Origin: Chondrosia reniformis
Taxonomy: Eukaryota > Porifera > Demospongiae > Chondrillida > Chondrillidae
Direction of reading: 5' to 3'
Assembly: GCA_947172415.1 (NCBI GenBank)
Contig: OX359202.1
Span: forward strand, 3,632,001-3,696,000
Length of the DNA: 64,000 bases
Within the stretch, counting starts at the first letter, position 1; every line of letters starts with the position of its first letter. A program made the translations under genes and the position numbers. Positions 18,488 to 53,857 of this stretch are shown here, one piece after another. Below the pieces are notes generated by a model. It saw only the letters and a program-made list of their open reading frames with translations, had not been told where the DNA came from and searched no databases.

Positions 18488-18548
18488 CAAGTAGTTTGAG
18501 TTAAAAAACTTGTGGGCTGCCGCCCCCCGAATGAACTCGAACTACTTG
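18488..18548 (-). repeat. Helentron 3' terminal hairpin and subterminal inverted motif
   Basis: On the minus strand CAAGTAGTTCGAGTT pairs with AACTCAAACTACTTG at the very end, with one mismatch. The loop holds CGGGGGGCGGCAGCCC, whose GGCAGCCC is the inverse of the GGGCTGCC at the 5' end (38,217-38,227). The N1 elements end in the same structure. The copy at 37,862-37,895 has the stem but not the GC-rich loop. Confidence 0.85.
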
Positions 18549-19581
18549 GCTCCCTTCAGTCGCTGTGGCCTTATTATTACCAACCATGTTCATCCTCCTG
18601 GTTTAATCTATTAAACACTTCTATGATCAATTATCAATTAATAAGTACATTAGAAACAGAAAAAAGAGTTTAAGGAAAGAGTATTAGCTCTTGGTACAAT
18701 GAAGCCTGTGTTTTGCAGGAACACTGAAGTATGCACTAAAATGACTTGTAAGTTAATAGTGCAATAAATGAGATATGATAGATATGGTATGGGTATGATT
18801 TCTTTCTTTGGTTCCAAACATGTTTATCCAGTGCTTCTCAGAAATGCATTAATTTGTTGGAAAGAATATGTGGATACCTGAAGGAAAATAGTACACTTAC
18901 AAAGTAACAGTACTTCGCAGTAATGTGCATTTAGCAATCATATTATATATACACTTACTTGTTAGACTTGCTAATGAAATGCTTGCTCACTCCTCATGTC
19001 TCCCCAATGCAGGTCTAAGTTATGCGTTTATAGTAATTCAAAACATGTATCTTCTTCTATATTATTTTCCCTCTAGTTGTGAAGGTAAGGAGTGACCTGC
19101 AATGATGTGAGAACAATTTGAAATTTGTAATGAAGTTTGTAAGTGAAAGCCAAATGAGGTATACAATTCAAGAAATTGGAACTGTTGACTTACCATAAAA
19201 AGTTTAAATTGACTGCTCCATGCATCCTTGCTTCTTAGTAAAGCACAAAAAGGACACTAACTGTGACACTGCCAACCACACATCAGAGAAAACATTCAAA
19301 ATTACAAAACACATATGAACTCATACTAACACCCTGTATTGCTGTAGAGTGTGACTTATTGTCAAAATACATTGTTGATATAGGAATTTTACAAACACTT
19401 AGAAAATATATTATATGTAAAGTACAAATATACTTCAGTGTATAGAAAGTAGCCTCCAATACTAAATTCTATATAACTGGATATCACCACGTCAGCCTTC
19501 TCAGTCACCACATTCTACCATTCACTTGCCTTGATACACAAACGCTGCAACCGATGATGGTAGTTGGCACATTTGTGTATA
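18549..19581 (-). other. Helentron 3' non-coding region
   Basis: About 1 kb between the OTU-like stop and the terminal hairpin. The inverted second copy has the same region at 36,824-37,861 with high identity, which ties the coding region to the terminus in two copies. No open frame of note in either copy. Confidence 0.75.
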
Positions 19582-20600
19582 TCACTCTTCAGGAGCCCAC
19601 TGTGACATGAAGGTGGTAAATGGAGCAAACCCTAAGGAACATTTTGCAGACACCATTGGAAGAATGGCAGTGAAATGAGAGGTATCCAAAAATCCTAAAA
19701 GTGGAACATGCTCTTCAGGGACTGCATCAGAGCGATAGCAAATACTGTTTTTCAACCGCTTGTCTCTCATTTCAAACAGATCTTGCATTCAGTAGGTGTG
19801 ACATCCTGCTTAATTGGTTGGAGCTGCTTTCCTTCATCTTGAAGACATCTGCTGTGCATTACACCATACAACCAAATGGACCTCCCCAAAATCATTGCCA
19901 GTGCATGCAGATGAAATTGGTTTCCCCATGACTTGTCAGTGATCGAACTGCGAAGTAGTTCCAGCCACTGTACTTCTGCTGCTTTAGCAACTGAAGCGGC
20001 ATCTCGTTTCTGCAATGGTAGAAGTATCCTAGCAGTTGGCTGAATGAGTTTTAGCATATGTTGTTGATGCACAATGAGGCTATAAGCGGTCACCAATCTC
20101 AAGTGGCACATGTACTGCTCTGTTCCACAAAGCGCCAAAGATAGAATATGATACATACAATTTCCACCTCCTTTAGTGCTAACTGGCATGTACTGTGACG
20201 TAAAGGCTGGAAAGACATTGTCTTTTACTGCAACATCCACTTGATGATGCATATTACTGAAAGTTGCCTGGGAAGGACGATTGACCACTTTAAGAATAGT
20301 CTGTAATTCACTGTGATGACACTTTGACCACCTTACTATAGACTCACTATTCAAAGTGTTACTAGTCACTATAGCTTCAAGAATTGTTTTCAGTGACAAC
20401 ACCAGTGTGTCAACATAGGTAATTGGGATGTCTGAATGCACAGACTGACTGCCATCCACTAATGGTTCCGATGTATGCTCCTTGCCATGTGTCCCTTTAT
20501 CCCCAATCTTAACATACCATTGTGACATGCACTTGCCATTGTGTACCAAAGCACTACTACCCTTTACTGCAGCACTTGATTTCTCCTCATTTTGACTACA
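19582..20600 (-). pseudogene. OTU-like cysteine protease domain of Helentron protein
   Basis: C-terminal part of the Rep/helicase protein. The frame 19,767-21,557 contains STKGGGNCMYHILSLAL, the Cys box of OTU-family proteases (normally G-D-G/N-C-L/M-F/Y), and further on HLHALAMILGRSIWLYG. The overlapping frame 19,582-19,788 continues to FLDTSHFTAILPM, which carries the expected late His. OTU domains are known in Helentrons; their role is unproven, with processing of the long polyprotein or countering host ubiquitin signalling as suggestions. One frameshift near 19,770 divides the domain. The same domain, also broken once, lies at about 36,200-36,823 in the second copy. Confidence 0.75.
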
Positions 20601-22336
20601 ATTTTGGACAAAATGACTTGATATTAGCTCCTCTTTTTCTGATTCCTCACCACTATGAGCAGATTCTTGTCGTAGCCTTGCCATTTCCTCAAGGACTCTC
20701 TTGTTTGCTGTCATCTGCTTTGGCTGAAAGTTCAGCAGGGCCACTCCATTCAGTGTGCGCACACGACTAAGAGCTACATAGGCCATTCCAGGTTCAAATA
20801 TATCTTTCCCTAAATCCATGACTGCTGCATCAAGAGACAATCCTTGCACCTTGTGAATAGTTGCTGCCCAGCACAGAATCAAGGGAATCTGTGTTCTCTG
20901 CAGGAGTGTACCTTCCTTTCCGCAGAAATGTGCAGAAATAGGCTGAATTGGTACAACATCCTGTTGCTCCGAGACAACTGGTACCTTTGACAATTTCCCC
21001 ACATTGGGATCTAAGAATCTCACATATACCTCTGTGGGTAATTCACCAGGCATATTCTGATGCCTTGTATTTCTCGGCCACTTGAAGCCTACAATTGTTC
21101 CTCTGGCACCATTCACCAAGCCATCACCACAGTTAATGTTTCTTTGCAACATTACTCTAGCACCAACTGCCAGCTTCAGTATACGGGGCAGTGCAGCACA
21201 GTCTTTATCATCTTTTGGAATGAGATGTTTGGGAACCTCATTGTATTCAATATTGGCATAAATTTGCCCTCGACTCTCTAATATTGCATGCTCTGCATCA
21301 ATACTATAGATTTGACTGCTCTTTGCCAGACTTTTTATCTGCATTTCATGGTGCCCATCAACATCTACTGTACGAGGATACAATGTCAGAGCTGTATCAA
21401 ATGGGGAAGCAAGCAAATCCACAGTCCCACCCGAAACCAAACGTGTTTGCAGAACTTTCACATCTTCATTGGTGTGCACGCCCGTCCTGATCCGATTAAG
21501 TATCTCTGAGAAGGAAGAATCATTCTGCTGACGCAAGTTCACTTCCAGTTCAATCACCTAGAAGAAATCTCTCCAAAGGTGTGAAGCCAGTCGTCCCGAT
21601 GAGCGTCCAGGTTTTTGACTGAATATTAAACTACCGTACACTGGACATAGCTGGTACAAGACACCCACTGCAATGACATTCAAGCCACCAAAAATCTCAT
21701 CATTGCCATAAATCTCACACAGTCGACTGTGAACTGACTTCAGTATCTGGTAAGACACCATACTGATTTCATCAATGATGATGGTGTGCACTCCTTGCCA
21801 CAGATTCCTCAAGTCATGCAGGGCTAGGGCATTCAGCTGCAATTGATGAGCAGTTCTGCCATGCTCCACTTGAAGCTGCAATGCTCCACCTGAAGCTGCA
21901 ATGCTCTATGGATTGTGATGCCTCCAATGCTGAAGGCTGCAACCCCGGTGGGTGCCATCAATATACAGGCATGCATCTCTTGACTCCCTGACATAAAACC
22001 TTCCATATGCTCTTTAATAGCCCTAATTACATGTGATTTTCCAGTGCCTTCTCCACCTGTCACAAACAGATGAAATGGTTCTGGAGGTTCGTGGCGTATT
22101 TTCATTCTGTGTTTGTGCAACTCACGAGTGTAGTGCACAACAATGTCAAATGGAATACGCTGCTTTGTATTCAAACTTGCAATGAGTTGCCTAAATTCTC
22201 TATCAGTAAGGGAGTGTCTACTCATGGCTCCAATGTCGTCATCATTGTCATTTAGTAGCATATGTTCTGCATCTATTGCAATCAGATTGTTATCATCAAG
22301 GCGTGCTGGCTCCATGAAATGCTCTGGGTTCATCAA
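20601..22336 (-). pseudogene. Pif1-family helicase region of Helentron protein
   Basis: Superfamily 1 helicase fused after the Rep domain. Motifs in order on the minus strand: LNTKQRIPFDIVVHY (Q-like), Walker A GGEGTGKSH, motif Ia LMAPTGVAAFSIGG, Walker B IIIDEISMV, a degraded motif III (VGVLYQLCPVYG), GDGLVNGARGTIVGF, and HKVQGLSLDAAVMDLG with YVALSRVRTL (motifs V and VI). Frames are 21,833-22,336, 21,558-21,881 and the start of 19,767-21,557, so at least two interruptions. A tandem repeat of CAATGCTCCACCTGAAGCTG near 21,875-21,905 accounts for one of them. In Helitrons this helicase is thought to unwind the displaced strand during rolling-circle transfer. Confidence 0.85.
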
Positions 22337-22947
22337 ACCTCTTTCAGCTTCAATAAAGGGTTGTGCAGCATCCTCCCTTTGAGCCTGCTGTGCATTGGGG
22401 CAATGACATCTTGGTAGGCATCATCTTCAAAGGCTTGTAATTGCACAACAGCCTTCTGCACTTCATCTGCAAAGGCATGATTGTGAGCATTCAAAACAAC
22501 CATTTCTCCTTCTCGTACAATGAAAGCCTCCATTGCAGAAGAGTGACCTTTCAACAGATCCTCAGGTTCCTTCCTCCAAGGATGTATAGTAGCAGCAAAC
22601 TGTAGTAATAGTCATCACCATGACTTTCTATTGTCTGTATTGGGATTCGAAGACAGGCTTGCTTCCTTCTCAGACGGACCCATCCCATGTCATTCTGCAA
22701 CTGGTTACGAGGTTGTGCTGGTCCATTTCCAACTTTCCCAACACCTTGTGTATCTACATCATAGCACACTGCAAAATGAGCCAAGGTCATGCTTGCAAAT
22801 TCTGGTGTGTCAGGTCTAGAAGCATATCTATCAAAGATACCAGGGGCAAAAATATCAGAGGAATCATCCTCCAATTCAAGCAATTTAGCAATTTAGTAAC
22901 CTCGTTCTCTTCTCTGGTCTGGCAGTGTTAAGGAATACAACTTTTCT
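22337..22947 (-). pseudogene. Region joining Rep and helicase
   Basis: Frames 22,333-22,554 and 22,551-22,883. The motifs DDSSDIFAPGIFDRYASRPD, followed by FASMTLAHFAVCYD and DDYYYSLLLLYILGG, match the conserved stretch that follows the Rep nuclease in Helitron proteins (usually S-x-D-I/V-F...RY..RP...LA.F and YY.SLLLL). Breaks lie near 22,553, 22,890 and 22,335. The second copy carries the same block at 34,454-34,990 in one frame. Confidence 0.75.
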
Positions 22948-24054
22948 TTAATTTTCTTTCAAAGGCAAGTGACACAATCGATATGCTGCCTCCTGGGCAC
23001 TCAACTCACGATGGGTCAGCATTGTGTTGCCAATCTTTGACAGACACTTTCTTGTTGAAGCCTGAGGGGGCAAGCTTTCCAATGCATCTCGAATAGCTTT
23101 CCTGACTTCTTCACTTTCTGATTTACACATGTAGGAACACACATATGCAGCTGTGCCATATACTGATCCAATCTATTGTAAATCCATATTAGCTTTCCAT
23201 GCCTTCAGAAGGTGTGTATTGTATGGATTGCAGTTTTCTTCCCCTTCTGATCTCTTCAAGACGTAGAACCTGGACTTGTTTCCAGGATCATCATGGCTTT
23301 TCAGCCGTGTATCTTCTGACAAAGGTTGAGGAAAATCAAATCGGCAGTGTGCCACATTTTTCCCCCTTCATGTTGCTTTCCTGCAAGTTGATGTATGATG
23401 GTGCTGCTGCACTCTCAACACCAAAGAACGAAGTTCTTCATCTTCGCAACCATGTGTTGGAATATTTACGGAAATGTACCTATCAATATACTGTGGAGCA
23501 ATCTGCCTTCCAGCTGTAGTATCTAGGTTTGGAGCATCCCTTATCCACCACATGGAATGGACATGAGGAGATCCCCTCAACTGGAATTCAATTCTCCAAA
23601 AGTAGTCAACTACCTCACCAATAGGTTGCCCAGATCCTTTAATCACTTCCCTGAGGAAGCACTGAAAGCGATGTGCAAAATGTCTAGCTGTAACCACTGG
23701 ATTTGTCCTCATTAGTTCTCTCCTCTCACTGGATGATTAATTAGCGGCCTGTTCCTCTGACAGATTCTGACCCATACACTTGCTGAGGACTATCATCAAG
23801 TCTACCCAATTATTATCGTCAGCACTCAGTGTGACAAAGAATGTGGGAGGACCTAGGGTGCGAAACATGGCAAATAGCTGTATCTTTACTGAGTTCCAAT
23901 AAGCCTGTATGCCACGAATATCTCTCATGAAGCTCTAACAATTTTCACGCAAGTGAGGGTTATTTTCCAGGCGTCCTTGCAACAAACCAGCTGTGAGTAG
24001 CTCCTTCTCGTTGGTTTCCTTGTTAGAGTTCTCACAGGGGCCTATTCTGAATGA
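22948..24054 (-). pseudogene. Helitron HUH Rep nuclease domain
   Basis: Rolling-circle nuclease region. Frame 23,737-23,928 has VKIQLFAMFRTLGPPTFFVTLS (shown in part: FRTLGPPTFFVTLSADD), the usual start of the Helitron_like_N domain. Frame 23,368-23,712 contains IEFQLRGSPHVHSMWW, where HVH is the metal-binding HUH motif. Frames 23,173-23,355 and 22,948-23,142 follow, the latter covering the two-tyrosine motif Y-V-C-S-Y-M-C-K, in which the tyrosines that cut and join DNA are four residues apart. The catalytic residues are all visible, but four or so frame breaks split the domain. Confidence 0.85.
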
Positions 24055-25268
24055 TCACATCCTCATAGCAATAGAAATGCTGCTCTGCAACTTCAAGGCT
24101 TCTACAATGTTACAGGCCCAAAAGATATAAGCAGGATGACATGCCCATCTTGAGTCAGCACTAAGCATTCTTGTTTGGAAATATTGTAGAGGTGTAACTT
24201 TGACTTCTCTGATGGTGCCAAAACCATTTTCACCATAGTGGTAAAGGGTCGGAAAAGCCAATACTTCTAAATCATTTTGATTCTCAAATATACTTAGCGG
24301 TGTGGTTGTTACTCTCTGCAACTTATGTATCTCTTGTTCTATTGGTATACTACCTTGTATCAAGTCAACAGCCTCTACAACGGGGTGGAGAGCATCCAAC
24401 CTAACAATTCCTGTTTCATCCATTTCTAAAATATCTTCATTCACATTTTCACTGTCAGTGACTTTTTCTTCTTTATGGTTGAACATGTCTTCTGACATCT
24501 TAGGGATGGTGATGTCACCATACAAGGGGTTATGTTGCTTTAACCATTTCAGAGCTTGCATCACATTGGAGTATCGACAGGTATGGTAAATTGTATCAGG
24601 GACAGAGTCATTTGGTTTACTTCCAATAGAGTCTGGCTGCTGAATGTACAGAATATCTTCACCACTGGGTAAACGAGGGAGCTCTGAAATGACACAGTCA
24701 ACATTAGAGGGAAAGTTGATTACCTGGCCTCTAACAGCCCTTTGTCCACCCCTTGGCAAAATAACCATTTTCATGAAAACAGTAGCCTTTGAAATCAAAC
24801 GCTGCTCTAATGTGTTTAGTCCAATGAACACTGAAGGGACCTCTGGTACTTTCATTTTATTAAACTGTGATCCTGCTGGAATTTTCTTTCTTTCCATAGC
24901 ACTCTTGCATTTGTTACACAACCACACACTTTCTATACTTTCTTGACTGATTCATTCACCACAGCAAGTAGATCATTTGCCACATCGCAGCTGTACAAGG
25001 CACCCAACTGCTCACAGCACAACCTTTCACATGAAAAACACTTATGGGTCAGCCCTTTAAGAATTGCTTTTTCAAATTTATGTAAGTTATTTTTCAACTT
25101 TAAACCTTGTTTGGATGGTATTGAAATCTCAAGTCTTGGTACTTGCACAGCAGATGCAGTAACAACACCAGACTCAATTACACTTCCACCCACTTCCATG
25201 TCCACCTCTTCAGACTTTTGGCTGATAAGATTTTTCCTTAGCAGTATCATCCATGACTGAATCATCAC
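24055..25268 (-). pseudogene. Cys-rich and DUF6570-like region of Helentron protein
   Basis: Frame 24,933-25,268 ends with HKCFSCERLCCEQLGALYSC and frame 24,055-24,927 opens with WLCNKCKSAMERKKIPAGS, then LNTLEQRLISKATVFMKMV and RAVRGQVINFPSNVD. This Cys pairing followed by a G-x-V-x-N-x-P segment resembles DUF6570 regions seen just ahead of the Helitron Rep domain. The Cys pairs suggest zinc binding. The frame overlaps the end of the repeat ORF (25,210-26,745), so a frameshift near 25,230 probably separates what was one protein. A stop lies near 24,930. Confidence 0.65.
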
Positions 25269-26745
25269 TTTGGGTTGATTCTCTTTGAACTTCCTTCACA
25301 CTGTCACTCTCCAACCCATCAGTGGATTTGTAAATTGAACTAATGCGGGTCACATTTACCTTGGTATTTGAAACAATGCTAGTACATGGCATACTACTGG
25401 TTATTTCTCCTTCTGAGTTACACTTTACTTGCAGAAGTCGTTTTTGCCTCCTCCATGCTTGCATTCTTAATCTTGCTTGCTCTTTTTCTCTCTCCAGTCT
25501 TAGAGTACTTTTTTGTTTAGATTCATTAATCAATCTTGTTTTCTTCCATTTGTTACTGCTGCTCAGTCTTGACTCCCGTTTTTTAGTCAATTCAGACTGC
25601 AACCTCTTCCTCTGATTTTTAGAGAGGGTGGCAAGTCTTGCAGCACGATCTTCATTGCTTTCTGTCTGCAACCTCTTACTCTGATTTTCACAGAGGGTGG
25701 CAAGTCTGGCAGCATGAGCTTCATTGCTTTCTGACTGCAACCTGTTACTCTGATTTTGAGAGAGGTTGGCAAGTCTGGCAGCACGATCTTCATTGCTTTC
25801 TGACTGCAACCTCTTACTCTGATTTTCACAGAGGGTGGCAAGTCTTTCAGCACGATCTTCATCAATTTCTGACTGCAGCCTCTTACTCTGATTTTCAGAG
25901 AGGGTGGCAAGTCTTGCAGCACGATCTTCATCAATTTCTGACTGCAGCCTCTTACTCTGATTTTCAGAGAGGGTGGCAAGTCTTGCAGCACGATCTTCAT
26001 TGCTTTCTGACTGCAACCTCTTACTCTGATTTTCAGAGAGGGTGCCAAGTCTTGTTGCACGATCTTCCTTGGTTTCTGAGTACAGCCGTTTCCTGTTATT
26101 TTCAGTGAGTGTAGCAAGCCTCACAGCACGTTGCTTCTCAGTCTCATATTGCAGCCGCAGTCTCTGGTTCTCAGACATTTTTAATAACCTTATACGGTGC
26201 TCTTCAACTGTTTCAGCATCTAGCCGCTTTCTCTGACATGCTGACAGCATGGCCAGTGTAGAACATTTCTTTGTTGCACTGTTCATGTATTCTTGACCTT
26301 CAATTCCAGTTTGATTCATAACTGGATTAACAGCTGATGTAGGCATTGTCGGTTCATCATGTATCTCACTCTGACGTGGGCCTGGGTTCAGTTCAACATC
26401 TCCACCCAGCAATAGCAGTATACTTAATGCACGAGCTAAGCGAAAGTTGCCCTTACAGTAGCGCCTTCTGCGTAGCAGGTGATGCAATGTACACCTGAAC
26501 CATTGCCTTCGTTGATGGATGCACATATTCTTGTGCAATACAAAAACCAAATGAAAATGCTTCATTGGAATGTCATGGTACTCCAAGCAATTAGTTGTTA
26601 AATGACCATGGCGAGGCTCATATGTTACTGACATAAGAATTGTGAAACCATCAAGGTTCATTTCGTTCAGGTCAGTGTACATTTTTATTTCATGGATCAT
26701 ACTGTAAGTAGAAGTACATATTTCAGATTGCCAAACACAAGACAA
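25210..26745 (-). CDS. Helentron N-terminal ORF with 2A motif and STPR-type repeats
   Basis: Open for 511 codons. The first codon of the frame here is TTG; the first ATG is residue 16, so the true start is uncertain and may lie further upstream or in another exon. Residues about 1-114 are basic and hydrophobic by turns and end ARALSILLLLGGDVELNPGP, with a 2A-like ribosome-skipping motif at 115-123. Residues about 160-420 hold ten or eleven tandem 23-residue units of the form RLATL-ENQSKRLQSE-EDRAA, matching the length and Arg-rich pattern of STPR repeats, which bind DNA in silk-gland factor FMBP-1. A basic tail RLRMQAWRRQKRLLQ follows. It sits directly upstream of the Cys-rich/DUF6570 region and very likely formed the N-terminus of the Rep-helicase protein. 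Confidence 0.7.
   Translation of the reverse strand: MSCVWQSEICTSTYSMIHEIKMYTDLNEMNLDGFTILMSVTYEPRHGHLTTNCLEYHDIPMKHFHLVFVLHKNMCIHQRRQWFRCTLHHLLRRRRYCKGNFRLARALSILLLLGGDVELNPGPRQSEIHDEPTMPTSAVNPVMNQTGIEGQEYMNSATKKCSTLAMLSACQRKRLDAETVEEHRIRLLKMSENQRLRLQYETEKQRAVRLATLTENNRKRLYSETKEDRATRLGTLSENQSKRLQSESNEDRAARLATLSENQSKRLQSEIDEDRAARLATLSENQSKRLQSEIDEDRAERLATLCENQSKRLQSESNEDRAARLANLSQNQSNRLQSESNEAHAARLATLCENQSKRLQTESNEDRAARLATLSKNQRKRLQSELTKKRESRLSSSNKWKKTRLINESKQKSTLRLEREKEQARLRMQAWRRQKRLLQVKCNSEGEITSSMPCTSIVSNTKVNVTRISSIYKSTDGLESDSVKEVQRESTQSDDSVMDDTAKEKSYQPKV
25480..26265 (-). repeat. 69-bp tandem repeat encoding 23-residue units
   Basis: About ten units of 69 bp, strongest at 25,600-26,110, so near-identical that all three minus frames and one plus frame stay open across it. 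Third-position changes and SN/ID swaps distinguish units; two central units are nearly identical, a sign of recent unit exchange. Confidence 0.85.
26377..26403 (-). other. 2A-like ribosome-skipping motif
   Basis: Encodes GDVELNPGP, an exact match to the D-V/I-E-x-N-P-G-P consensus, preceded by ILLLL. Known 2A peptides stop bond formation between the last G and P. If active here, about 122 residues would be released from the STPR-Rep part. The hydrophobic lead resembles 2A sequences in animal non-LTR elements and sponge/echinoderm proteins. Confidence 0.75.
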
Positions 26746-26769
26746 TCCATTCCAGATACAGTGTGAGTG

Positions 26770-27045
26770 ACCCCAGTATGAGGGTGCAGGACCCCGGCAG
26801 CAGGGTCCAGGACCCCAGTCACAGGGTGAGTAACCCCAGCCACAGGGTAATTAACCCCAGCCACAGGGTAAGCAACCCCAGCCACAGTGTTATTGACCCC
26901 AGCCACACGGCAATTGACCCCAGCCACAGGGTGAGCAACCCCAGCCACAGGGTAATTGACCCCAGCCACAGGGTAATTGACCCCAGCCACAGGGTGAGCA
27001 ACCCCAGCCACAGGGTAATCGACCCCAGCCACAGGGTGATTTACT
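26770..27045. repeat. 21-bp minisatellite
   Basis: About 13 units built on GACCCCAGCCACAGGGTAA. Being a multiple of three and stop-free it stays open in several frames: a seven-residue VAGVNYP repeat on the minus strand (26,697-27,032) and others. It lies just upstream of the repeat ORF in a different frame, so it is more likely a leader repeat than coding. Confidence 0.8.
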
Positions 27046-28239
27046 TTGACTCCAGAAACAGAGCCAAGAAATGACAGAATGAGTGTAATTATGTTTGTAG
27101 ATAGTGCCTATCATGACAGTCTGTTCATGTGAGATGTATGGAAATGGAGTGGTGTCAGAGTGCATACATACCATGTGTTGTTCATATTTCAGACATCTAT
27201 AGCCTGGAATAAAGAATAGAAAGGCAACTAATATATATACAAAAGAAAACCCAGTCACACAGCATAGAACAACTTACCGTAAAGATACAGTTGTATGCAT
27301 GTGAAAAAATTATTGAGATTTTTAAAAATTTGGCCTCTAATCACATTAGCCCTTTTTATATGCATTCGATCTTGTCTATCAAGATTAGTGCCACCCCTTC
27401 AGCAGCTAGCTGCCCCACCCACCACCTCTAGACAACTGCCCCACCCACAGTCTTCTAGAATCACATGAAGGCACAATTCTGAACTAATATTAACTATTAT
27501 ATAGTAAACAGAAGTGATGATTTTGACATACTCAAAATTGGCCACTTCAACATTATTGCCGCTGTCGCTGATTTTTCCACAAACACTTTCAGTATCAACG
27601 CTTGAAGAAGTAATTTGTTGCTTGAAGTTAGTGTTGTCGATTTTTATAAATACAGCAATTAAATAGTGCGATAGAACTTCGTGCGCCCAGTTATTGCCTC
27701 GCATAATTATAGATAAAACTCACACATACAATATTGTCACTTTACAGTATCAATGAAGGCTAAGTTGGCTTGTGTTCTGTGCAGTATTTCTTACGGTTTT
27801 TTCCATATTCACTGTTCTGGGATGATTCCTTCTGCATAGGGTAAAAAGGATGTAGTATTAATGTTGGAAAGGTATATATATATAGTGAAATAAAGAATGT
27901 CATTAACTACATTCCAATTGCTAAATATGGGAGGTGTCCGTAAGTTTTCCAAAGGCAATTAAGTATTGCATAATAAAGACACTCAAAGTTTGCTGGACAA
28001 TTTACCCATCTGAAGCGTTTTTCTTTACTGTATTAAAAGAATAGCCTATTTTACTTCTCTTCTATTAAGTAGTGGAGTCAGTTTAGTACATGACAATGTT
28101 ATTAGGGATATGCTGTATTCATTAAAGAACTTAGCGGTGCTACTACTACAGATACATAAACGATTTACGCAATTCTTTGTATATAATGGCAAGTTCCTGT
28201 CTTTTCTCCATTCTATACCTATATTACCTAACAAGGTAG
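27046..28239. other. Helentron 5' flank and cargo, no identified gene
   Basis: Non-repetitive sequence upstream of the minisatellite. A minus-strand frame of 101 codons (27,399-27,704) begins MRGNNWAHEVLSHYLIAVF; I do not recognise it. It could be a 5' exon of the transposon gene. GCCCCACCCACCACCTCTAGACAACTGCCCCACCC contains a short local duplication near 27,405-27,440. Nothing else is supported. Confidence 0.4.
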
Positions 28240-28341
28240 CCTTTCGATCGACAGCTTGAGAAGCTTGGCGTCATTGCTGATGCTATAGAGCTTATTCTAT
28301 ACAACCGGAAGCGTTACCACCTCGATCGCTCTATATCATAG
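28240..28341 (+). pseudogene. Exon-like fragment, unidentified protein
   Basis: After AACAAGGTAG (an AG acceptor) there is an open, protein-like reading PFDRQLEKLGVIADAIELIL then YNRKRYHLDRS, ending at a stop created by the CATAGATTATC repeat that begins at 28,337. I do not recognise the family. Its amphipathic, Leu/Ile-rich pattern differs from random AT-rich reading. Read as a captured host exon fragment inside the Helentron; chance is possible at this length. Confidence 0.35.
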
Positions 28342-28818
28342 ATTATCTATAGGAATTGGACTTGAATCTGCTCCCCTTATCGTACCATGACCTTAATACT
28401 TGGGCTAATTGCCGAACGAATTGGTAACGTTCAAAGTGATATACGAGAATCATATGAAATCCTTTATTGTATCCCTCTTCAAAGGCTATTCGACGTATCA
28501 AGTCATTTATAAAAACGTTTTATCTCATCATACATCCCGGAAACACTGTACCCAAAAACGGAATTTCAACAAACATGGTGACAGCCGTGCGTAGGCGGAT
28601 ACCAATCCAAAGTCTTTGTTCTTTTCCTAAGTAGAAGTCGTCCTAAGTAGAAGTCGGATTTAAGTATTAATTTAAGATGAATCTTAGCAGTTTAAGAAAG
28701 TAGGAGGAAAAGGAAGGGAATCTGTATGAAGAAATACAACTCTTTCAAATGGATAGATGTGCAGCTGAAACTTGGTGTCAGCATTCACAGACCGACAGCT
28801 AAGTGTACATTTCTGTAG

Positions 28819-28907
28819 GTTCAGATGATGGTACTGTAAGGTTGTGGGAGGTGGACACTGGTTATTGTTCATCCCTAAATCCTATCCAAAGAGTTTCACA
28901 CAAAGGG
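28819..28907 (+). pseudogene. Captured WD40-repeat exon fragment
   Basis: Preceded by GTACATTTCTGTAG (pyrimidine tract and AG acceptor) and followed by GTAAGATTTT (consensus-like donor), the 89-base segment reads GSDDGTVRLWEVDTGYCSSL and on to a Gly at the donor. G-S-D-D-G-T-V-R-L-W-E-V is the core of a WD40 blade (strands b-c with the WD-type dipeptide as WE). Flanking sequence has no further blades, so this is a single exon cut from a beta-propeller gene. It lies on the strand opposite the Rep/helicase gene. Parent gene not identifiable; ribosome-biogenesis and many other WD proteins share this core. Confidence 0.65.
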
Positions 28908-29007
28908 GTAAGATTTTCTTTTCATTCACGTAGCTATAAAACTTTGGTCCCAGCCGTCTTTAGCATAGCAAGGGAACGTCACCAAAGGAATTATGCCTAT
29001 ATTAAAC

Positions 29008-29055
29008 CATAGATTATCTATACTACGTAACGCTACGTAGTATACATAATCTATG
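29008..29055. repeat. 22-bp inverted repeat hairpin
   Basis: Arms 29,008-29,029 and 29,034-29,055, 21 of 22 bases paired, loop ACGC. The arm CATAGATTAT...ACTACGTA also occurs partly at 28,337. It may be an element end pair or a solo remnant. Confidence 0.75.
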
Positions 29056-29478
29056 ATTAAATGTCACTGTCTCATCCTTACAGTACCATCATCTTTATCA
29101 AAATCATTGTAATATTTGCCCTTGTTTATTGATAACATAATTTGAAAAAGTATATTAAACGTTATAGTAAAGGTATTACTACGCCTAGATGTAATTTGTC
29201 TTAAACAAAGACAAAATGATTACGTACGGTGCCGGACATAATTATGGATATCATATAATATGGCTAAAAATCAAAAGAAGGCCTTTAGAGCGCAAAAGAC
29301 TAATGTATTCATTTGGCAGGCGCCGTTGGTGTCTTTGCCGTACGCTTCTTATTACTGATTAGCATGATTATTAATAGATGGTACAAACATTACAGTGTTT
29401 ATTATAAACAGTTTATAAACAAATACTGTCATGTTTGTAAACACGGGAATCTAATTTAAGTTAGAAGTAAACTTACAG
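29056..29478. other. Cargo, no identified feature
   Basis: AT-rich non-repetitive sequence inside the Helentron. Only a 19-base inverted copy of the WD40 codons at 29,076-29,094 stands out. No gene seen. Confidence 0.5.
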
Positions 29479-30003
29479 CCTAAATGTACTGTAAGACTTT
29501 AGTAGAGGGAAGTCATGAGCTGTAAGACTATAAGACTCACAGAAAAGTGTATATTTGGAGGCACCGTAACTTTAGACCAATGTAGAATGCCTCTGCTAAG
29601 CTACACTCGTACAACTTTAGACACACTTAGAACCCCTCTGCTAAGCTACACTCTGACAACTTTAGACAGACTTAGAACGCCTCTGTCAAGTTACACTCGA
29701 ACAATTTCAGACACGCTTAGAACCCCTCTGCTAAGCCATACACTCGAACAACCGTTTAGATAGACTTAGAATGCCTCTGTCAAGTTACACTCGAACAACT
29801 TTAGACAAATGTAGAACCCCTCTGCTAAGCTACACACGAACAACTTTAGACAGACTTAGAACGCCTCTGCTAAGCTACACTCGAACAACTTTAGACAAAT
29901 GTAGAACCCCTCTGCCTAAATGTACTGTAAGACTTTAGTAGAGGGAAGTCATGAGCCGTAAGACTATCGGACTAAAAGAAAAGTCTGTATTTGGAGGCAC
30001 CGT
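29479..30003 (+). repeat. 45-bp repeat array 1 bracketed by 89-bp direct repeats
   Basis: Array of seven to eight 45-bp units at 29,568-29,914, each containing AGAACSCCTCTGCTAAGCTA and AACTTTAGACA. It is bracketed by 89-bp direct repeats at 29,479-29,567 and 29,915-30,003 that begin CCTAAATGTACTGTAAG and end GGAGGCACCGT, the same length with a handful of mismatches. The unit length keeps a 15-codon frame open, so an 82-codon frame (29,515-29,763) is a by-product. The bracket suggests duplication of one boundary segment with the array between. Confidence 0.8.
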
Positions 30004-30136
30004 GAAATCCCTTTGCTATATTTCAAATAAAATTTTGATATGGCTTCCATCTTCGAATACTTGTAAACGAAATGCCCAACGCTTAGGCCAACTTTGGCAT
30101 ACTATTCTAAGCTTTAATTAGCTTTCTCTTCACTAG

Positions 30137-30302
30137 CGTCACTGATGAAAATGGCACTGATGAAAACCAAAGTAAAGCCTGCGTACAAGGTTTTAAAGTC
30201 TTATGGACTTCAAACGACGAATTGGAACCGGTGAAACGTACGCTTAATGCCTTAAAACTGAAATATGAGCAAGTAGCTCGAGTATGGGGCTGCCTCCTAT
30301 AA
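30137..30302 (+). pseudogene. Exon-like fragment, possible terminal exon
   Basis: Follows TTAATTAGCTTTCTCTTCACTAG, a strong pyrimidine tract with AG acceptor. The frame then runs 54 codons to TAA: DENGTDENQSKACVQGFKVL, then WTSNDELEPVKRTLNALKLK and YEQVARVWGCLL. The composition is protein-like with an acidic start and amphipathic end; family not recognised. There is no ATG near its start, as expected of a downstream exon. Probably host sequence captured by the Helentron, or a decayed gene piece. Confidence 0.4.
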
Positions 30303-30551
30303 CTTGATTTGATAATGTGTTTCCCTCACTCTACAGTTTAGCACCCTACGTCTTTGTGTTCACCGATTCTTGACAAGGAGTAGTGTAAATATTAATCTTT
30401 ATATGGATTGTACACTACTGTTTGTTTAGAGATGGCGATCGTCTTTACATAATTATAAGTTAATGTATAAGCAGCGCGTATATAATATAGGAGGTCTACT
30501 ACTTATACATAAAAGCGTTATTGCTTAGTAAAAGATAATCAATATACTCAC

Positions 30552-30644
30552 TAGAGATGATGTTTGGCGTTCACGAAGGGAGTCATAGATAGCTGTAGCA
30601 TTGAAAAACGCTGTTATAAGCAAAAGCCACTTTTCCAAGTTCAT
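30552..30644 (-). pseudogene. Possible signal-peptide first exon
   Basis: From an ATG at 30,644 the minus strand reads MNLEKWLLLITAFFNATAIY then DSLRERQTSSL and meets GTGAGTATATT, a consensus splice donor, in phase 0. The N-terminus has the charge-then-hydrophobic pattern of a signal peptide. Function unknown; 31 codons is short and chance cannot be excluded. Confidence 0.3.
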
Positions 30645-31374
30645 CGTTGTAGCGTAGGTTGTTATAGCGATATCGATAATATTGTTACCGCCAAATGCTC
30701 GCTTCAAACGCCAAATTTCAGCCGTTATAGCGAACTTGGGCTGTTGGACAAGATTCCAGCTGTGCGATAAAAATTTCAGACGCTTGCGAACACGAGCATG
30801 GATACGATGGAAGTAATGAGTTTCATTTCTTGCATGATATACCAGACGATATACCTCTAAATAAAGAATGGCGGACTCACTCCGCCCTGTTTTAGCGACA
30901 CGTAAACCATACCACCAGTAGGCGTACGTAAACTAAACAAAATAAACTTGATAACAATGCAAGTGATTATCAAGTTTATTTTATTAATTGGTAAGAATTT
31001 TAACGAAAGGAAGTGTATAACATGTGCATACGAATTTATTGAAGAATACAGTGTAACCCCTTATACGGGACCCTCTGAAATGCGGACATTGCGATTATGC
31101 GGACACAAATATAAGGTCCCGATTGTTGCCCGTAGACGTACGTATTTAACTAACGTCTGATTTATAGACACCTCAATATTCCATAATACGGACATATATT
31201 CTTGAACCGCGTATATCATTGCAATAGGAATTTGTCCATATACCCTAGCTGTAGGTAAGCCTGTAACCAGTTGAGAGATACTGTAGTTTCTATAGTATTG
31301 GTATACTGTTATGGTTATGTAAATATCGTTTAGATCCCATTTTCTATTTAAATATATTATAGTACGATGCACTC
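30645..31374. other. Cargo with a single pogo-like terminus
   Basis: At 31,051, after TA, CAGTGTAACCCCTTATACGG begins, followed by TGCGGACATTGCGATTATGCGGACAC. CAGTG-A-CCCC with TTATA-CGG is the pattern of Tigger/pogo terminal repeats. I do not find the matching inverted end, so this may be a one-ended remnant. The rest is AT-rich with no supported gene. Confidence 0.4.
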
Positions 31375-31797
31375 TTGCTTGAAGAACACATAAACCCACC
31401 CCCCAACCAAACATTAACCCCACCACCCCCACCACTTCACTACCCCCACCCAACCCTTCTCCCATCCCACCCAACAATCCTCCACCTCCACCCAACATTA
31501 CTCCCACTAACTTGCCCCCACCCCTTCCAAGCACTACACCCACTACCTCCACCATCCCACCCTCTCAGCCAGTTCCCCGCCCTCAAACACAAAAGAAGGC
31601 AGGCAAGAAAGGGTGGACATGTAACACATAAGATGTGTCTTAACCAGTTTTTTGGATATGTTATTATAATCTCTTTTCCATGTGTAGATGCAGGTTCTAC
31701 AACTTTGGCTTCAGGGGAGGTGCAAAAGATGCAACTCCCCCAAAAGCAATGTGGGTAGACCGGGGAAGGGTTCAATGGTAAACAACATGCCCTTGAA
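31375..31797 (+). other. C-rich tract with Pro-rich frame
   Basis: About 200 bases of CCACCCCC/ACCC-rich sequence (31,388-31,570), G-rich on the other strand and able in principle to form quadruplexes. The plus frame 31,375-31,758 is Pro/Leu/Thr-rich then basic (KHKRRQARKGG). A 68-base GT...AG interval (31,621-31,688) could be a small intron leading to a frame with RCKRCNSPKSNVGRPGKG. Weak evidence; low complexity alone can explain the open frame. Confidence 0.3.
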
Positions 31798-31861
31798 TGT
31801 ATAATATATATAATATATTGGCATATATCTACACCTCAATGTATGTACATGCATGGGCACT

Positions 31862-31862
<1 letters not shown>

Positions 31863-31930
<68 letters not shown>
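31863..31930 (+). repeat. (TAA)n microsatellite
   Basis: About 22 uninterrupted TAA units. The open frame of Asn on one strand and Leu on the other is an artefact. Confidence 0.97.
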
Positions 31931-32264
31931 TATGCAAAATAAAAACATTAATGATTTTTTCTTTTTTTCCTTTAGACGTTCCATTCAATAAATGTTTCTG
32001 GGAACATTTTCTTTCAGTAGGACTATAAACACATATATGCACTCTTTATGTTATTTATTATTCATTAATTAACCTGATTCGGGAAAATAAAAGATAATTA
32101 ATTTAATTAATTAAGACGATTAACCAATATTAATTTTAAGGTTGTTTAATGTCTAATCAACTCTCTTTCACGAGCATGAGATCAAATCCATTGCAGGACT
32201 TTTTATGTCACACGCAATTAAAAAAGGGTTGAGTAAAGACGATGATCAAGTACAAGTTACAGTT
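31931..32264. other. Cargo, no identified feature
   Basis: AT-rich sequence between the microsatellite and the second 45-bp array, including a TTAATTAATTTAATTAATTAA run at about 32,094-32,118. No gene seen. Confidence 0.5.
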
Positions 32265-33560
32265 GTAGTGCTAAAATTACAGACAACATTAGACACAGGT
32301 AGAACGCCTCTGCTTAGCTACACTTGTACAACCTTAGACACACATAGAACACTTCTGTCAAGCTACACTCATACAACTTAGATAGAATTAAAACTCCTCA
32401 GGAAAGTTAGCTACACTCACAACCTTTAGACACACTTAGAACTCCTCTGCTAAGCTACACTAGAACAACTTTAGACAGACTTAGAACGCCTCTGTCAAAT
32501 TACACTCGAACAACTTTAGACAGACTTAGAATGCCTCTGCTAAGATACACTCGAACAACTTTAGACAGACTTAGAACGCCTCTGTCAAGTCACACTCGAA
32601 CAACTTCAGACACACGTAGAACCCCTCTGCTAAGCTACACTCGTACCACTTTAGACACGCTTAGAAGCCCTCTGATAAGCTATACACTCGAACAACTTTA
32701 GACAGACTTAGAACGCCTCTGCTAAGCTACATTTGTACAAATTAAGACATGCGTATGTAGAACGCCTCTGCTAAGCTACATTTGTACAACTTTAGACACG
32801 TAGAACCCCTCTGCTAAGCTACACTCGTACCACTTTAGACACGCTTAGAACCCCTCTGCTAAGCTATACACTCGAACAACTTTAGACAGACTTAGAACGC
32901 CTCTGCTAAGCTACATTTGAACAAACTAAGACATACGTACGTAGAACGCCTCTGTCAAGTTACACTCGAACAACTTTAGACACACGTAGAACCCCTCTGC
33001 TAAGCCATACACTCGAACAACCGTTCAGATAGACTTGAACGCCTCTGCTAAGCTACACTCGAACAACTTCAGACACGCTTAGAACCCCTCTGCTAAGCCA
33101 TACACTCGAACAACCGTTTAGATAGACTTGAACGCCTCTGCTAAGCTACACTCGAACAACTTTAGACACACTTAGAACCCCTCTGCTAAGCTATACACTC
33201 GAACAACTTCATAGATACACTAAGAACGCCTCTTTCAAGCTACACGTATACAACTCTAGACACACGTACGTAGAACGCCTCTGCTAAGTACAACTTTAGA
33301 CACACGTAGAACGCCTCTGCTAAGCTACACTTGTATAAACTTAGACACACGAAGAACACTTCTGTCAAACTACACCCATACAACTTTAGATACACTTAGA
33401 ACGCCTCTGTCAGGCTTTACTAAGCTATACTAGTACAACTGTAAACACATGTAGAACGCCTGTGCTAAGCTACACTCGTACAACTTTCAGACATACGTGG
33501 AATAGCTCTACCAAGCTGTATTCAATCAAATTTAGACACACATAGAACGTCTTTCTTCAA
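32265..33560 (+). repeat. 45-bp repeat array 2
   Basis: About 28 units of the same 45-bp repeat as at 29,568-29,914 (AGAACGCCTCTGCTAAGCTA, ACTCGAACAACTTTAGACA). Units fall into sub-types that alternate (CGCCTCTG versus CCCCTCTG; GCTACACT versus GCCATACACT), which gives local higher-order pairs near 32,640-33,180. Units at both edges are more diverged, as expected of an array evolving by unequal exchange. No CRISPR: there are no unique spacers and the repeat is contiguous. Confidence 0.88.
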
Positions 33561-33742
33561 AATGTTTACAAAATCAGTCCTACGGGCTGTACAGGTAGAA
33601 TTACAATAACAACTTAGCACTGACAGAGGTTACACAGATCGTAGACATTAGAACGTCTTTTTAGACAGACATAGGCCTAGTATTACAGTATTTACTTAAA
33701 TCAAAAAACGATTCATAGATTTTGACCAAACTTACTTGTCTT
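33561..33742. other. Cargo between array 2 and the internal direct repeat
   Basis: Unique AT-rich sequence ending CTTACTTGTCTT, whose ACTTG matches the last bases of the Helentron terminus at 37,891-37,895. No gene seen. Confidence 0.5.
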
Positions 33743-33912
33743 TTTTTCATTACGCTTCTAATTGAAAGTACTTGGAGACTTGGTTGGACTTCAATATGGC
33801 TATCTACTGGTATTCCAAACGATTTTGGAAGCTTAAGTGTCCTGAACATGATAGAAAAGCTTCAGCTTCATGAAGGCCACCATTTGCGAAAACGATGTAT
33901 TGACGTATAAAT
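33743..33912. repeat. 170-bp direct repeat, left copy
   Basis: Begins TTTTTCATTACGCTTC and ends GACGTATAAAT. The partner at 37,896-38,065 has the same length with only about two mismatches. It is part of the Helentron 5' region (shared with N1 elements in reverse complement). The pair exactly brackets the internal inverted Helentron copy. Confidence 0.88.
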
Positions 33913-36823
33913 AATTGGTGAGGTAGTTGACTACTTTTGGAGAATTGAATTCCAGTTGAGGGGATCTCCACATGTCCATTCCATGTGGTGGATATGGGAT
34001 GCTCCTAACTTAGATACTACAGCTGGAAGGCAGATTGCTCAACAGTACATTGATAGATACATTTCTGTAAATATTCCAACACATGGTTGCAAAGATGAAG
34101 AACTTCGTTCTTTGGTGTTGAGAGTGCAGCAGCACCATCATACATCTACCTGAAGGAAAGCAACACGAAGGGGGACAAATGTGGCAGACTGCCGATTTGA
34201 TTTTCCTCAACCTTTGTCAGAAGATACACGGCTGAAAAGCCATGATGATCCTGGAAACAAGTCCAGGTTCTACGTCTTGAAGAGATCAGAAGGGGAAGAA
34301 AACTGCAATCCATACAATACACACCTTCTGAAGGCATGGAAAGCTAATGTGGATTTACAATTGATTGGATCAGTATATGGCACAGCTGCATATGTGTGTT
34401 CCTACATGTGTAAATCAGAAAGTGAAGAAGTCAGGAAAGCTATTTGAGATGCATTGGAAAGCTTGCCCCCTCAGGCTTCAACAAGAAAGTGTCTGTCAAA
34501 GATTGGCAACACAATGCTGACCCATCGTGAGTTGAGTGCCCAGGAGGCAGCATATCGATTGTGTCACTTGCCTTTGAAAGAAAATTCAAGAAAAGTTGTA
34601 TTCCTTAACACTGCCAGACCAGAGAAGAGAACGAGGTTACTCAAGAGTAGGTCTGAATTGCTTGAATTGGAGGATGATTCCTCTGATATTTTTGCCCCTG
34701 GTATCTTTGATAGATATGCTTCTAGACCTGACACACCAGAATTTGCAAGCATGACCTTGGCTCATTTTGCAGTGTGCTATGATGTAGATACACGAGGTGT
34801 TGGGGAAGCTGGAAATGGACCAGCACAGCCTCGTAACCAGTTGCAGAATGACATGGGATGGGTCTGTCTGAGAAGGAAGCAAGCCTGTCTTCGAATCCCA
34901 GTACAGACAGTAGAAAGTCATGGTGATGACTATTACTACAGTTTGCTGCTACTAAACATCCTTGGAGGAAGGAACCTGAGGATCTGTTGAAAGGTCACTC
35001 TTCTGCAATGGAGGCTTTCATTGTACGAGAAGGAGAAATGGTTGTTTTGAATGCTCACAATCATGCCTTTGCAGATGAAGTGTAAAAGGCTGCTGTGCAA
35101 TTACAGGCCTTGGAAGATGATGCCTACCAAGATGTCATTGCCCCAATGCACAGCAGGCTCAAAGGGAGGATGCTGCACAACCCTTTATTGAAGCTGAAAG
35201 AGGGTTGATGAACCCAGAGCATTTCATGGAGCCAGCACGCCTTGATGATGACAATCTGATTGCAATAGATGCAGAACATATGCTACTAAATGACAATGAT
35301 GACGACATTGGAGCCATGAGTAGACACTCCCTTACTGATAGAGAAATACAAGGCATCAGAGTATGCCTGGTGAATTACCCACAGAGGTATATGTGAGATT
35401 CTTAGATCCCAATGTGGGGAAATTGTCAAAGGTACCAGTTGTCTCGGAGCAACAGGATGTTGTACCAATTCAGCCTTTTTCTGCACATTTCTACGGAAAG
35501 GAAGGTACACTCCTGCAGAGAACACAGATTCCCTTGATTCTGTGCCGGGCAGCAACTATTCACAAGGTGCAAGGATTGTCTCTTGATGCAGCAGTCATGG
35601 ATTTAGGGAAGGATATATTTGAACCTGGAATGGCCTATGTAGCTCTTAGTCGTGTGCGCACACTGAATGGAGTGGCCCTGCTGAACTTTCAGCCAAAGCA
35701 GATGACAGCAAACAAGAGAGTCCATGAGGAAATGGCAAGGCTACGACAAGAATCTGCTCATAGTGGTGAGGAATCAGAAAAGAGGAGCTAATATCAGGTC
35801 ATTTTGTCCAAAATTGTAGTCAAAATGAGGAGAAATCAAGTGCTGCAGTAAAGGGTAGTAGTGCTTTGGTACACAATGGCAAGTGCATGTCACAATGGTA
35901 TGTTAAGATTGGGGATAAAGGGACACATGGCAAGGAGCATACATCGGAACCATTAGTGGATGGCAGTCAGTCTGTGCATTCAGACATCCCAATTACCTAT
36001 GTTGACACACTGGTGTTGTCACTGAAAACAATTCTTGAAGCTATAGTGACTAGTAACACTTTGAATAGTGAGTCTATAGTAAGGTGGTCCAAGTGTCATC
36101 ACAGTGAATTACAGACTATTCTTAAAGTGGTCAATCGTCCTTCCCAGGCAACTTTCAGTAATATGCATCATCAAGTGGATGTTGCAGTAAAAGACAAAGT
36201 CTTTCCAGCCTTTACGTCACAGTACATGCCAGTTAGCACTAAAGGAGGTGGAAATTGTATGTATCATATTCTATCTTTGGCGCTTTGTGGAACAGAGCAG
36301 TACATGTGCCACTTGAGATTGGTGACCGCTTATAGCCTCATTGTGCATCAACAACATATGCTAAAAGTCATTCAGCCAACTGCTAGGATTGCAGAAACGA
36401 GATGCCACTTCAGTTGCTAAAGCAGCAGAAGTACAGTGGCAGGAACTACTTCACAGTTCAATCACTGACAAGTCATGGGGAAACCAATTTCATCTGCATG
36501 CACTGGCAATAATTTTGGAGAGGTCCATTTGGTTGTATGGTGTAATGCACAGCAGATGTCTTCAAGATGAAGGAAAGCAGCTCCAACCAATTAAGCAGGA
36601 TGTCACACCTACTGAATTGCAAAATCTGTTTGAAATGAGAGACAAGCGGTTGAACAACAGTATTTGCTATCGCTCTTATGTAGTCCCAGAAGAGCATGTT
36701 CCACTTTTAGGATTTTTGGATTCCTCTCATTTCACTGCCATTCTTCCAATGGTGTCTGCAAAATGTTCCTTAGGGTTTGCTCCATTTACCACCTTCATGT
36801 CACAGTGGGCTCCTGAAGAGTGA
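33913..36823 (+). pseudogene. Partial Rep, linker, helicase end and OTU of internal copy
   Basis: Frame 33,956-34,153 holds the HUH motif (RGSPHVHSMWW); 34,181-34,447 holds the two-tyrosine motif Y-V-C-S-Y-M-C-K; 34,454-34,990 the linker; 35,205-35,396 the pre-helicase part; 35,363-35,791 the helicase end with HKVQGLSLDAAVMDLG; 35,866-36,420 and 36,389-36,823 the OTU-like part, with GGGNCMYHILSLAL and SSHFTAILPM. About six frame breaks plus the deletion. Several breaks differ from the larger copy, for example the Tyr and linker frames are longer here, so the two decayed independently. Confidence 0.85.
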
Positions 36824-37861
36824 TATACACAAATGTGCCAACTACCATCATCGGTTGCAGTGTTTGTGTATCAAGGCAAGTGAATGGTAGAATGTGGTGA
36901 CTGAGAAGGCTGACATGGTGATGTCCTATTATATAGAATTCAGTATTGGAGGCTACTTTCTACACACTGAAGTATATTTGTACTTTGCATATAATATATT
37001 TTCTAAGTGTTTGTAAAATTCCTACATCAACAATGTGTTTTGACAATAAGTCACACTCTACAGCCATACAGGGTGTTAGTATGAGTTCATAGGTGCTTTG
37101 TAATTTTGAATGTTTTCTCTGATGTGTGGTTGGCAGTGTCACAGTTAGTGTCCTTTTTGTGCTTTACTAAGAAGCAAGGATGCATGGAGCAGTCAATTTA
37201 AAAGCTTTCTGGTAAGTCAACAGTTTCAATTTCTTGAATTGTATACCTCATTTGGCTTTCACTTACAAACTTCATTACAAATTTCAAATTGTTCTCACAT
37301 CATTGCAGGTCACTCCTTACCTTCACAACTAGAGGGAAAATAATATAGAAGAAGATACATGTTTTGATTACTATAAACGCATAACTTAGACCTGCATTGG
37401 GGAGACATGAGGAGTGAGCAAGCATTTCATTAGCAAGTCTAACAAGCAAGTGTATATATAATATGATTGCTAATTAACTCATGCACATTACTGCGAAGTA
37501 CTGTTACTTTGTAAGTGTACTATTTTTCTTCAGGTATCCACATATTCTTTCCAACAAATTAATGCATTTCTGAGAAGCACTGGATAAACATGTTTGGAAT
37601 CAAAGAAAGAAACCATACCTATACCATATTTATCATATCTCAGTTATTGCACTATTAACTTACAAGTCATTTTAGTGCATACTTCAGTGTTCCTGCAAAA
37701 CACAGGCTTCATTGTACCAAGAGCTAATACTCTTCCCTCAAACTCTTTTTTCTGTTTCTAATGTACTTATTAGATGATGATTGATCATAGAAGTGTTTAT
37801 TACAGTATACCAGTAGCATGAACATGATTGGTAATTAAAGGACACAGTGACCGAAGGGAGC

Positions 37862-37895
37862 CAAGTAGTTCGAGTTTTTTAACTCGAACTACTTG
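37862..37895 (+). repeat. Helentron 3' terminal hairpin, internal copy
   Basis: CAAGTAGTTCGAGTT, TTTT, AACTCGAACTACTTG: a perfect 15-bp stem. It lacks the GC-rich loop of the outer terminus, and the next bases are TTTTT, matching the T-T insertion preference of Helentrons. Confidence 0.9.
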
Positions 37896-38227
37896 TTTTT
37901 CATTACGCTTCTAATTGAAAGTACTTGGAGACTTGGTTGGACTTCAATATGGCTATCTACTGGTATTCCAAACGATTTTGGAAGCTTAAGTGTCCTGAAC
38001 ATGATAGAAAAGATTCAGCTTCATGAAGGCCACCATTTGCAAAAACGATGTATTGACGTATAAATTAAGTGTTACAATAGTTTCGTTTGAACTTGTATTA
38101 TACATATAGCGACGTATAAAATAAGTGTTATATTAGTTGCGTATTATATATATATTCATCCGTAACATGAAGCCATACATAAATCGCGTTATGAAAACAA
38201 TAGAGGAGGCTGCCTATGGCAGCCCCT
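37896..38227 (-). repeat. Helentron 5' terminal region with 170-bp direct repeat
   Basis: Holds the right copy of the 170-bp repeat (37,896-38,065), then the 5' region shared with N1 (ACGTATAAATTAAGTGTTAC, CGTAACATGAAGCC). It ends with GGCTGCC-TAT-GGCAGCC at 38,208-38,225, a perfect 7-bp hairpin forming the 5' terminus of the giant element on the minus strand. Confidence 0.8.
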
Positions 38228-44321: not shown

Positions 44322-44458
44322 GTACATACAACAAGCTAATATAGCTAGTAAATACAAGTAGTACATATGCCTAGTACATACACATATATATAGTATATAT
44401 AAATAGTACATACAACTAGTATATATAACTAGTACAAACAACTAGTACATCCACCCAG
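44322..44458 (-). repeat. 13-bp satellite, A-sense
   Basis: Short piece between MITE and LINE; ends CATCCACCCAG, the left target duplication of the LINE. Confidence 0.85.
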
Positions 44459-53695: not shown

Positions 53696-53857
53696 TTGAA
53701 AAACAAAAGCCTTAACGGAGAACCTTGTTACTTCTTGCCTTAGTGTACTAAGGCAAGGAGTATCAGGCTTGGACAACCCTCAGTCAGTTATGTTTTCCTT
53801 TCTTTGGGTTTTTAGCCAGAAGCCTCGGCTTTTCCTCCTTCTGACAGCAGCAGACGG

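Follow-up and report, generated by a model that had tools for sequence, protein, structure and literature searches.

A probable single 19.7-kb insertion with Helitron2/Helentron-type ends in a satellite of Chondrosia reniformis, with paralogous empty sites nearby

The stretch of Chondrosia reniformis DNA analysed here (64,000 nucleotides of contig OX359202.1, hereafter the window) contains a block of 19,742 bp that is flanked on both sides by satellite built on a 13-bp unit and lying in the same orientation (Table 1). The block is oriented with its 5' end at 38,227 and its 3' end at 18,486 and consists, in that direction, of a 5' module, an inverted copy of part of a RepHel gene (copy B) bounded by a direct repeat, a middle region (about 26,850-33,742) of some 7 kb of poorly coding DNA, a second and longer copy of the RepHel gene (copy A) and a 3' module; without the nested copy B and its 170-bp duplication its length is 15,589 bp. 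Its borders, its end structures, the order of these parts and the broken state of the RepHel gene are read directly from the letters. Two small elements, N1a and N1b, lie outside the block in the left part of the window.

Table 1. Coordinates of the features in and around the block (positions in the window; a dot marks features given no strand)
Feature	Position	Strand	Remarks
N1 element a	2,087-2,467	+	HINE-like; both modules, without the 5' terminus
Join-spanning site	5,500-5,619		score 195
Join-spanning site	6,201-6,318		score 206
Join-spanning site	6,491-6,610	+	score 203; uninterrupted paralogous site, contains the phrase at 6,541-6,570
Join-spanning site	8,173-8,054	-	score 195
N1 element b	14,028-15,212	+	split by a 765-bp insert (14,088-14,852) and a short satellite-like insert in the 3' hairpin
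Join-spanning site	17,749-17,872		score 179
Whole insertion	18,486-38,227	-	compared with eight paralogous sites without the block and 300 control joins
3' module	18,486-18,550	-	arm, subTIR GGCGGCAGCCC, terminal hairpin arm, CTACTTGTT
Copy A, RepHel gene in pieces	19,585-26,850	-	STPR repeats, DUF6570, Helitron_like_N (Rep), PIF1, Pif1_2B, OTU (Pfam)
21-bp tandem repeat	26,769-27,041		
WD40-like coding scrap	28,803-29,009	+	about 30 codons, VYISVGSDDGTVRLWEVDTGYC...
45-bp minisatellite, first array	29,568-29,915	.	
Possible relic Helentron-like 3' end	30,270-30,297	-	GGCAGCCCC and ACTCGAGCTACTTG; same orientation as the element
45-bp minisatellite, second array	32,283-33,549	.	
170-bp direct repeat, left copy	33,743-33,912	.	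partial 5' module
Copy B	33,914-37,895	+	inverted, 5'-truncated second copy; ends in a 3' hairpin without subTIR
170-bp direct repeat, right copy	37,896-38,065	.	part of the 5' module
5' module (332 bp)	37,896-38,227	-	homology to N1 begins near nt 20 and stops at the first arm of the 3' hairpin of N1
5' terminus	38,195-38,227	-	begins AGGGGCTGCCATAGGCAGCC; palindromic 5' subTIR at the extreme end
Join-spanning site	39,876-40,001		score 178
Join-spanning site	50,387-50,505		score 198
Join-spanning site	51,035-51,154		score 185

When the two flanks were joined at 18,485|38,228, the resulting satellite phrase was found at eight further sites in the window (Table 1), at seven of which the alignment is gap-free within 11 bases of the join. 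The site at 17,749-17,872 has a four-base difference in a TA run immediately left of the join, and in another alignment of the site at 39,876-40,001 28 bp are absent, with two gaps right of the join. The sites starting at 6,201 and 6,491 are parts of a single 292-bp tandem repeat, so the eight are not all independent. Because the satellite is periodic, random joins also align across such sites and a control was therefore required: among 300 random joins made from the same flanks with the same tiling as the true join, none scored 178 or more (best 176, median 143), against up to 206 for the true join. With a coarser tiling, 3 of the 300 random joins had one match of at least 170 whereas the true join had seven, and an earlier set of 12 control joins scored 123-165. 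The joined flanks as a single stretch also aligned with 4,409-7,239 (81.4% over 2,871 columns, with 214 gap positions).

These results support the reading of the block as a single insertion and confirm that the window holds uninterrupted satellite sites, since the same satellite unit occurs elsewhere in the window without the block; the sites are paralogous satellite units and not an allelic empty site. The original prediction of one 19.7-kb insertion with an empty site in the same window was thus borne out, and the phrase it had named as uninterrupted falls within one of the join-spanning alignments. Of the borders it had placed at 18,488 and 38,227, the right one stands and the left one moves outward by two bases, to 18,486, with a two-base (TT) ambiguity at the limits. 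The filled site minus the empty site leaves AA, which is TT on the element strand, and the target is accordingly a T-T step with no long target duplication, as in the Helentron/Helitron2 superfamily. Here a rolling-circle insertion of close to 20 kb could be tested against paralogous empty sites with controls.

Both ends of the block carry structures of the same superfamily. GGGCTGCC at the 5' end reads GGCAGCCC when reverse-complemented, and this sequence recurs at the 3' end, so that subTIRs are present near both ends, and a 3' palindrome or hairpin was seen in single folds made without a shuffled control. At the 3' end GGCAGCCC lies within the hairpin, 28 nt from the last base (TT counted), and the element's last bases are CTACTTGTT; this distance is shorter than the 38-60 nt given for the subTIR of mite HINEs (PMC4067079). 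The layout of the ends is that described for Helentrons, HINEs and Helitron2 in PMC4067079 and PMC5148889. Between the ends no second 5' module was found except the partial copy in the 170-bp duplication. A candidate 5' end at 27,490-27,769 on the minus strand matched the N1 5' module with a score of 70, above 150 local shuffles (68); however, 29 of 60 whole-region shuffles also reached 70 and the match was rejected as noise.

The two N1 elements combine the same 5' and 3' modules as the large element, which supports the reading of the block as one insertion. Against the 3' module of the large element, N1a showed 86.7% identity over 83 bp, 17 bp of which are flank, and N1b 89.2% over 37 bp. 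The inner part of the 5' module aligned with N1 with a score of 53, equalled in none of 2000 single-base shuffles; N1a and N1b share this module from about nt 20 inward, and the terminal ~20 nt including the subTIR are absent from both. The earlier statement that the ends match the two ends of the N1 elements consequently holds for the 3' end and, at the 5' end, only for the part inward of about nt 20. These shared termini tie small HINE-like elements to a RepHel-bearing partner at one locus. The 765-bp insert of N1b has an 87% identical counterpart at 3,379-4,144, and a long near-perfect inverted repeat was noticed by eye within it at about 14,640-14,820.

Copy A was recognised in pieces by Pfam, with matches to STPR repeats (E=1.2e-43), DUF6570 (1.4e-22), Helitron_like_N (PF14214, 9e-15 and 8.4e-8), PIF1 (PF05970, 2.1e-6 and 3.1e-10), Pif1_2B (PF21530, 8.7e-10) and OTU (5.7e-5). 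The Rep and PIF1-like helicase of strict Helentrons are therefore both represented, in a gene whose reading frame is broken by several in-frame stops and frame changes. An AP endonuclease was not found in the 24 pieces compared with Pfam, out of 44 stop-to-stop pieces of at least 35 aa at 18,451-26,850; the set covered 11 of the 12 pieces at 18,451-19,788, and the other pieces overlap members of the set in other frames, one over the border excepted. The domain may have been lost through decay. Comparison of one Rep piece with PDB lent Rep no support, since two Cas7/Csa2 sequences (E=0.21-0.22) ranked above the Helraiser structure 7lcc (E=0.56). Two further observations concern the 5' part of the gene: a 2A-like motif, DVELNPGP, lies behind a run of hydrophobic residues early in the RepHel reading frame (26,850-25,213, minus strand), for which a literature search found no paper linking 2A with Helitron, and a 69-bp coding minisatellite of 7.8 copies (25,591-26,130) lies inside the STPR repeats.

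Copy B is 97.3 and 97.5% identical to copy A over 1,427 and 2,528 aligned bases (97.0 and 96.7% by BLAST) and lacks 1.12 kb of it (21,076-22,195). It is cut inside Rep at its 5' end, and its 3' terminus, which abuts a T run, has lost the subTIR and forms a perfect hairpin with a 15-bp stem (37,853-37,895). The direct repeats on either side of it are identical at 168 of 170 positions. Most simply, copy B would be a truncated member of the same lineage that inserted into the 5' module and duplicated 170 nt of its target. Divergence between A and B (101/3955) does not differ significantly from that between the direct repeats (2/170; p=0.44); B may thus have originated from this very locus, and it cannot count as wholly independent support for A's 3' end. 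Both copies are broken; they share two frame changes, judged from the frames with no intact reference protein and seen base for base in one of the two cases (a motif sought for the first of them did not appear, so the frames carry it), and each has private lesions too. Because these changes are shared, the common ancestor of A and B was probably already broken, as far as the frames tell, and movement in trans is likely. As a truncated self-insertion accompanied by a 170-bp duplication, the copy would be a natural case open to testing.

The original prediction had also counted about 11 kb of cargo in front of the genes. Of this, about 4.15 kb proved to be the inverted, 5'-truncated copy with its 170-bp duplication, and what stays is the poorly coding middle, in which the minisatellites lie together with a weak WD40-coding scrap and what may be a relic 3' end. 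The WD40 scrap matched PF25174 (E=0.00057) and PF00400 (E=0.0093), neither reaching the curated cut-offs, and in PDB many WD40 chains, the best at 13 bits per single repeat. Apart from it, Pfam gave matches only at E 0.03 or worse for 30 of the 39 stop-to-stop pieces of at least 50 aa at 27,050-33,800; of the nine pieces outside this set, seven lie mostly in minisatellites or a TAA run and two over the TAA run (31,714-31,947 and 31,839-32,045). The possible relic 3' end is a two-block motif matching at 23 of 26 positions, whereas none of 200 simulated regions exceeded 20, in a test devised after the motif had been noticed; a plain single-block alignment was not significant, and the region folds at -8.0 kcal/mol, with no comparable hairpin, while A, N1 and B reach -22.5 to -25.1 kcal/mol. 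Rfam at gathering scores gave no match over 18,300-38,400, and no tRNA was found in the window. Inspection by eye showed direct repeats of some 85 bp on either side of the first 45-bp array (29,480-29,568 and 29,914-30,003).

The finding and the domains of the protein suggest an animal origin, and the element may resemble those of bivalves. As to its name, the ends and the Rep, PIF1 and OTU domains accord with the Helentron identity first proposed, but the AP endonuclease that defines strict Helentrons was not found in the pieces compared, and Helitron2/proto-Helentron-like is therefore the safer name. According to PMC4067079, Helentrons and HINEs share with this element the subTIRs, the 3' palindrome, T-T insertion, Rep/helicase and OTU, as well as small non-autonomous relatives and paralogous empty sites; unlike them, the present element has no endonuclease domain that we could find, reaches 19.7 kb and contains a nested copy of itself and, possibly, an inner relic 3' end. 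Helitron2 and FoHeli (PMC5148889) likewise have asymmetric terminal inverted repeats, hairpins, Rep-Hel without endonuclease and a T-rich target, whereas STPR, DUF6570 and OTU domains and a length of 19.7 kb distinguish the element described here. Cg_HINE of the Pacific oyster resembles it in having two modules with tandem repeats between them and oligo-T insertion; PMC7492417 states that Cg_HINEs could not be related to autonomous partners, whereas here a RepHel-bearing element shares modules with small ones.

The element looks unusually large for its known kind. Large Helitrons that have captured DNA are known, up to 39 kb in maize and 14 kb in fungi (PMC6431247), and composite transposition has been discussed for Helentrons (PMC4067079); the element is a large, apparently dead newcomer among them. 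Viral and prokaryotic contig collections scanned with the RepHel pieces, the 45-bp minisatellite, the satellite and the 5' and 3' module patterns yielded no relative, and the lack of a second whole-element copy is expected from the nature of these collections.

With good confidence, we regard 18,486-38,227 as one Helitron2/Helentron-type rolling-circle insertion on the minus strand, at a T-T step of the satellite; the single insertion, its size, its type of ends and the lack of another inner 5' end all agree with the original prediction, which fell short on the strict sense of Helentron, the full 11 kb of cargo and the N1 5' terminus. We infer that it transposed in a rolling-circle manner. The RepHel of an intact relative, acting in trans, would have nicked the 5' end, one strand would have been peeled off up to the 3' hairpin terminator, and integration of this strand at T-T would have produced no long target duplication. 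A 5'-truncated copy of its own lineage, copy B, would have landed in inverted orientation at the T run in the 5' module and left the 170-bp repeat; a possible cause of the repeat is that repair synthesis ran through 170 nt of target and then switched to the incoming strand. Since RepHel no longer has an intact reading frame and shares two frame changes with the nested copy, the element probably belongs to a dead lineage mobilised in trans.

How the large element came by its middle region can be read in two ways that refine this explanation, and the breaking-off of the 5' module at the N1 hairpin arm, judged from the alignment, would fit either. The first, a tentative reading with somewhat less than an even chance, is a natural composite: a non-autonomous N1-like element without its former 3' terminator would have been copied through some 12 kb or more, past host DNA and a weak old 3' end at 30,270. 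Copying would have halted where a downstream RepHel copy has its 3' end, taking that whole neighbouring copy along, and the 15.6-kb product, a HINE head joined to an autonomous tail, would have moved in trans as a single unit. The 5' module indeed follows N1 as far as the first arm of the 3' hairpin, where the likeness ends, no 5' module was found immediately upstream of the RepHel copy, and the element encloses both the possible relic and the WD40 scrap. However, the same junction would be expected if N1 had arisen by deletion between similar CCAAGTA arms, the relic has the post hoc test and lacks the hairpin and the single-block alignment described above, and the WD40 match lies under the curated cut-offs. 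Terminator bypass and composite transposition have both been described (PMC4778049 and PMC4067079): in Helraiser, read-through and the transduction of flanking DNA become more frequent once the 3' hairpin is lost, although Helraiser is a canonical Helitron scored with a 1.6-kb cassette, whereas here a natural event over several kb would be involved. If true, the locus would be a testable natural case of terminator bypass.

The second reading, which we hold no more firmly than as a possibility a little short of evens, is that of a native long family. In it the autonomous element would always have had several kb of poorly coding, minisatellite-bearing DNA between its 5' module and RepHel, followed by the 3' module, and N1 would have arisen from it by internal deletion between similar arms. 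In its favour, both modules are paired in N1, the break lies at the repeated arm, and non-autonomous Helentrons with central tandem repeats are described from the Pacific oyster (PMC7492417); taken alone, however, this reading leaves the possible relic 3' end and the WD40 scrap unexplained. Two or more separate insertions, in which a small N1-like element was later interrupted by a RepHel element, are improbable: the 5' and 3' modules together do look like one N1 split open, but an inner RepHel element would need its own 3' end within 18,560-19,600, where no match exceeded 20 of 26 (the simulated maximum), and copy B has the same 3' terminus right after the RepHel gene, although B may derive from this locus. 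That the right border is a false join in the repetitive satellite is very improbable, for although satellite arrays are difficult to assemble, the join coincides with a proper 5' terminus and subTIR, and the satellite register is restored beyond it.

Elsewhere in the window, a reverse-transcriptase element is present in two copies that are 93% identical (44,323-46,762 and 53,574-56,018, minus strand), with PF00078 in the region of the second copy.
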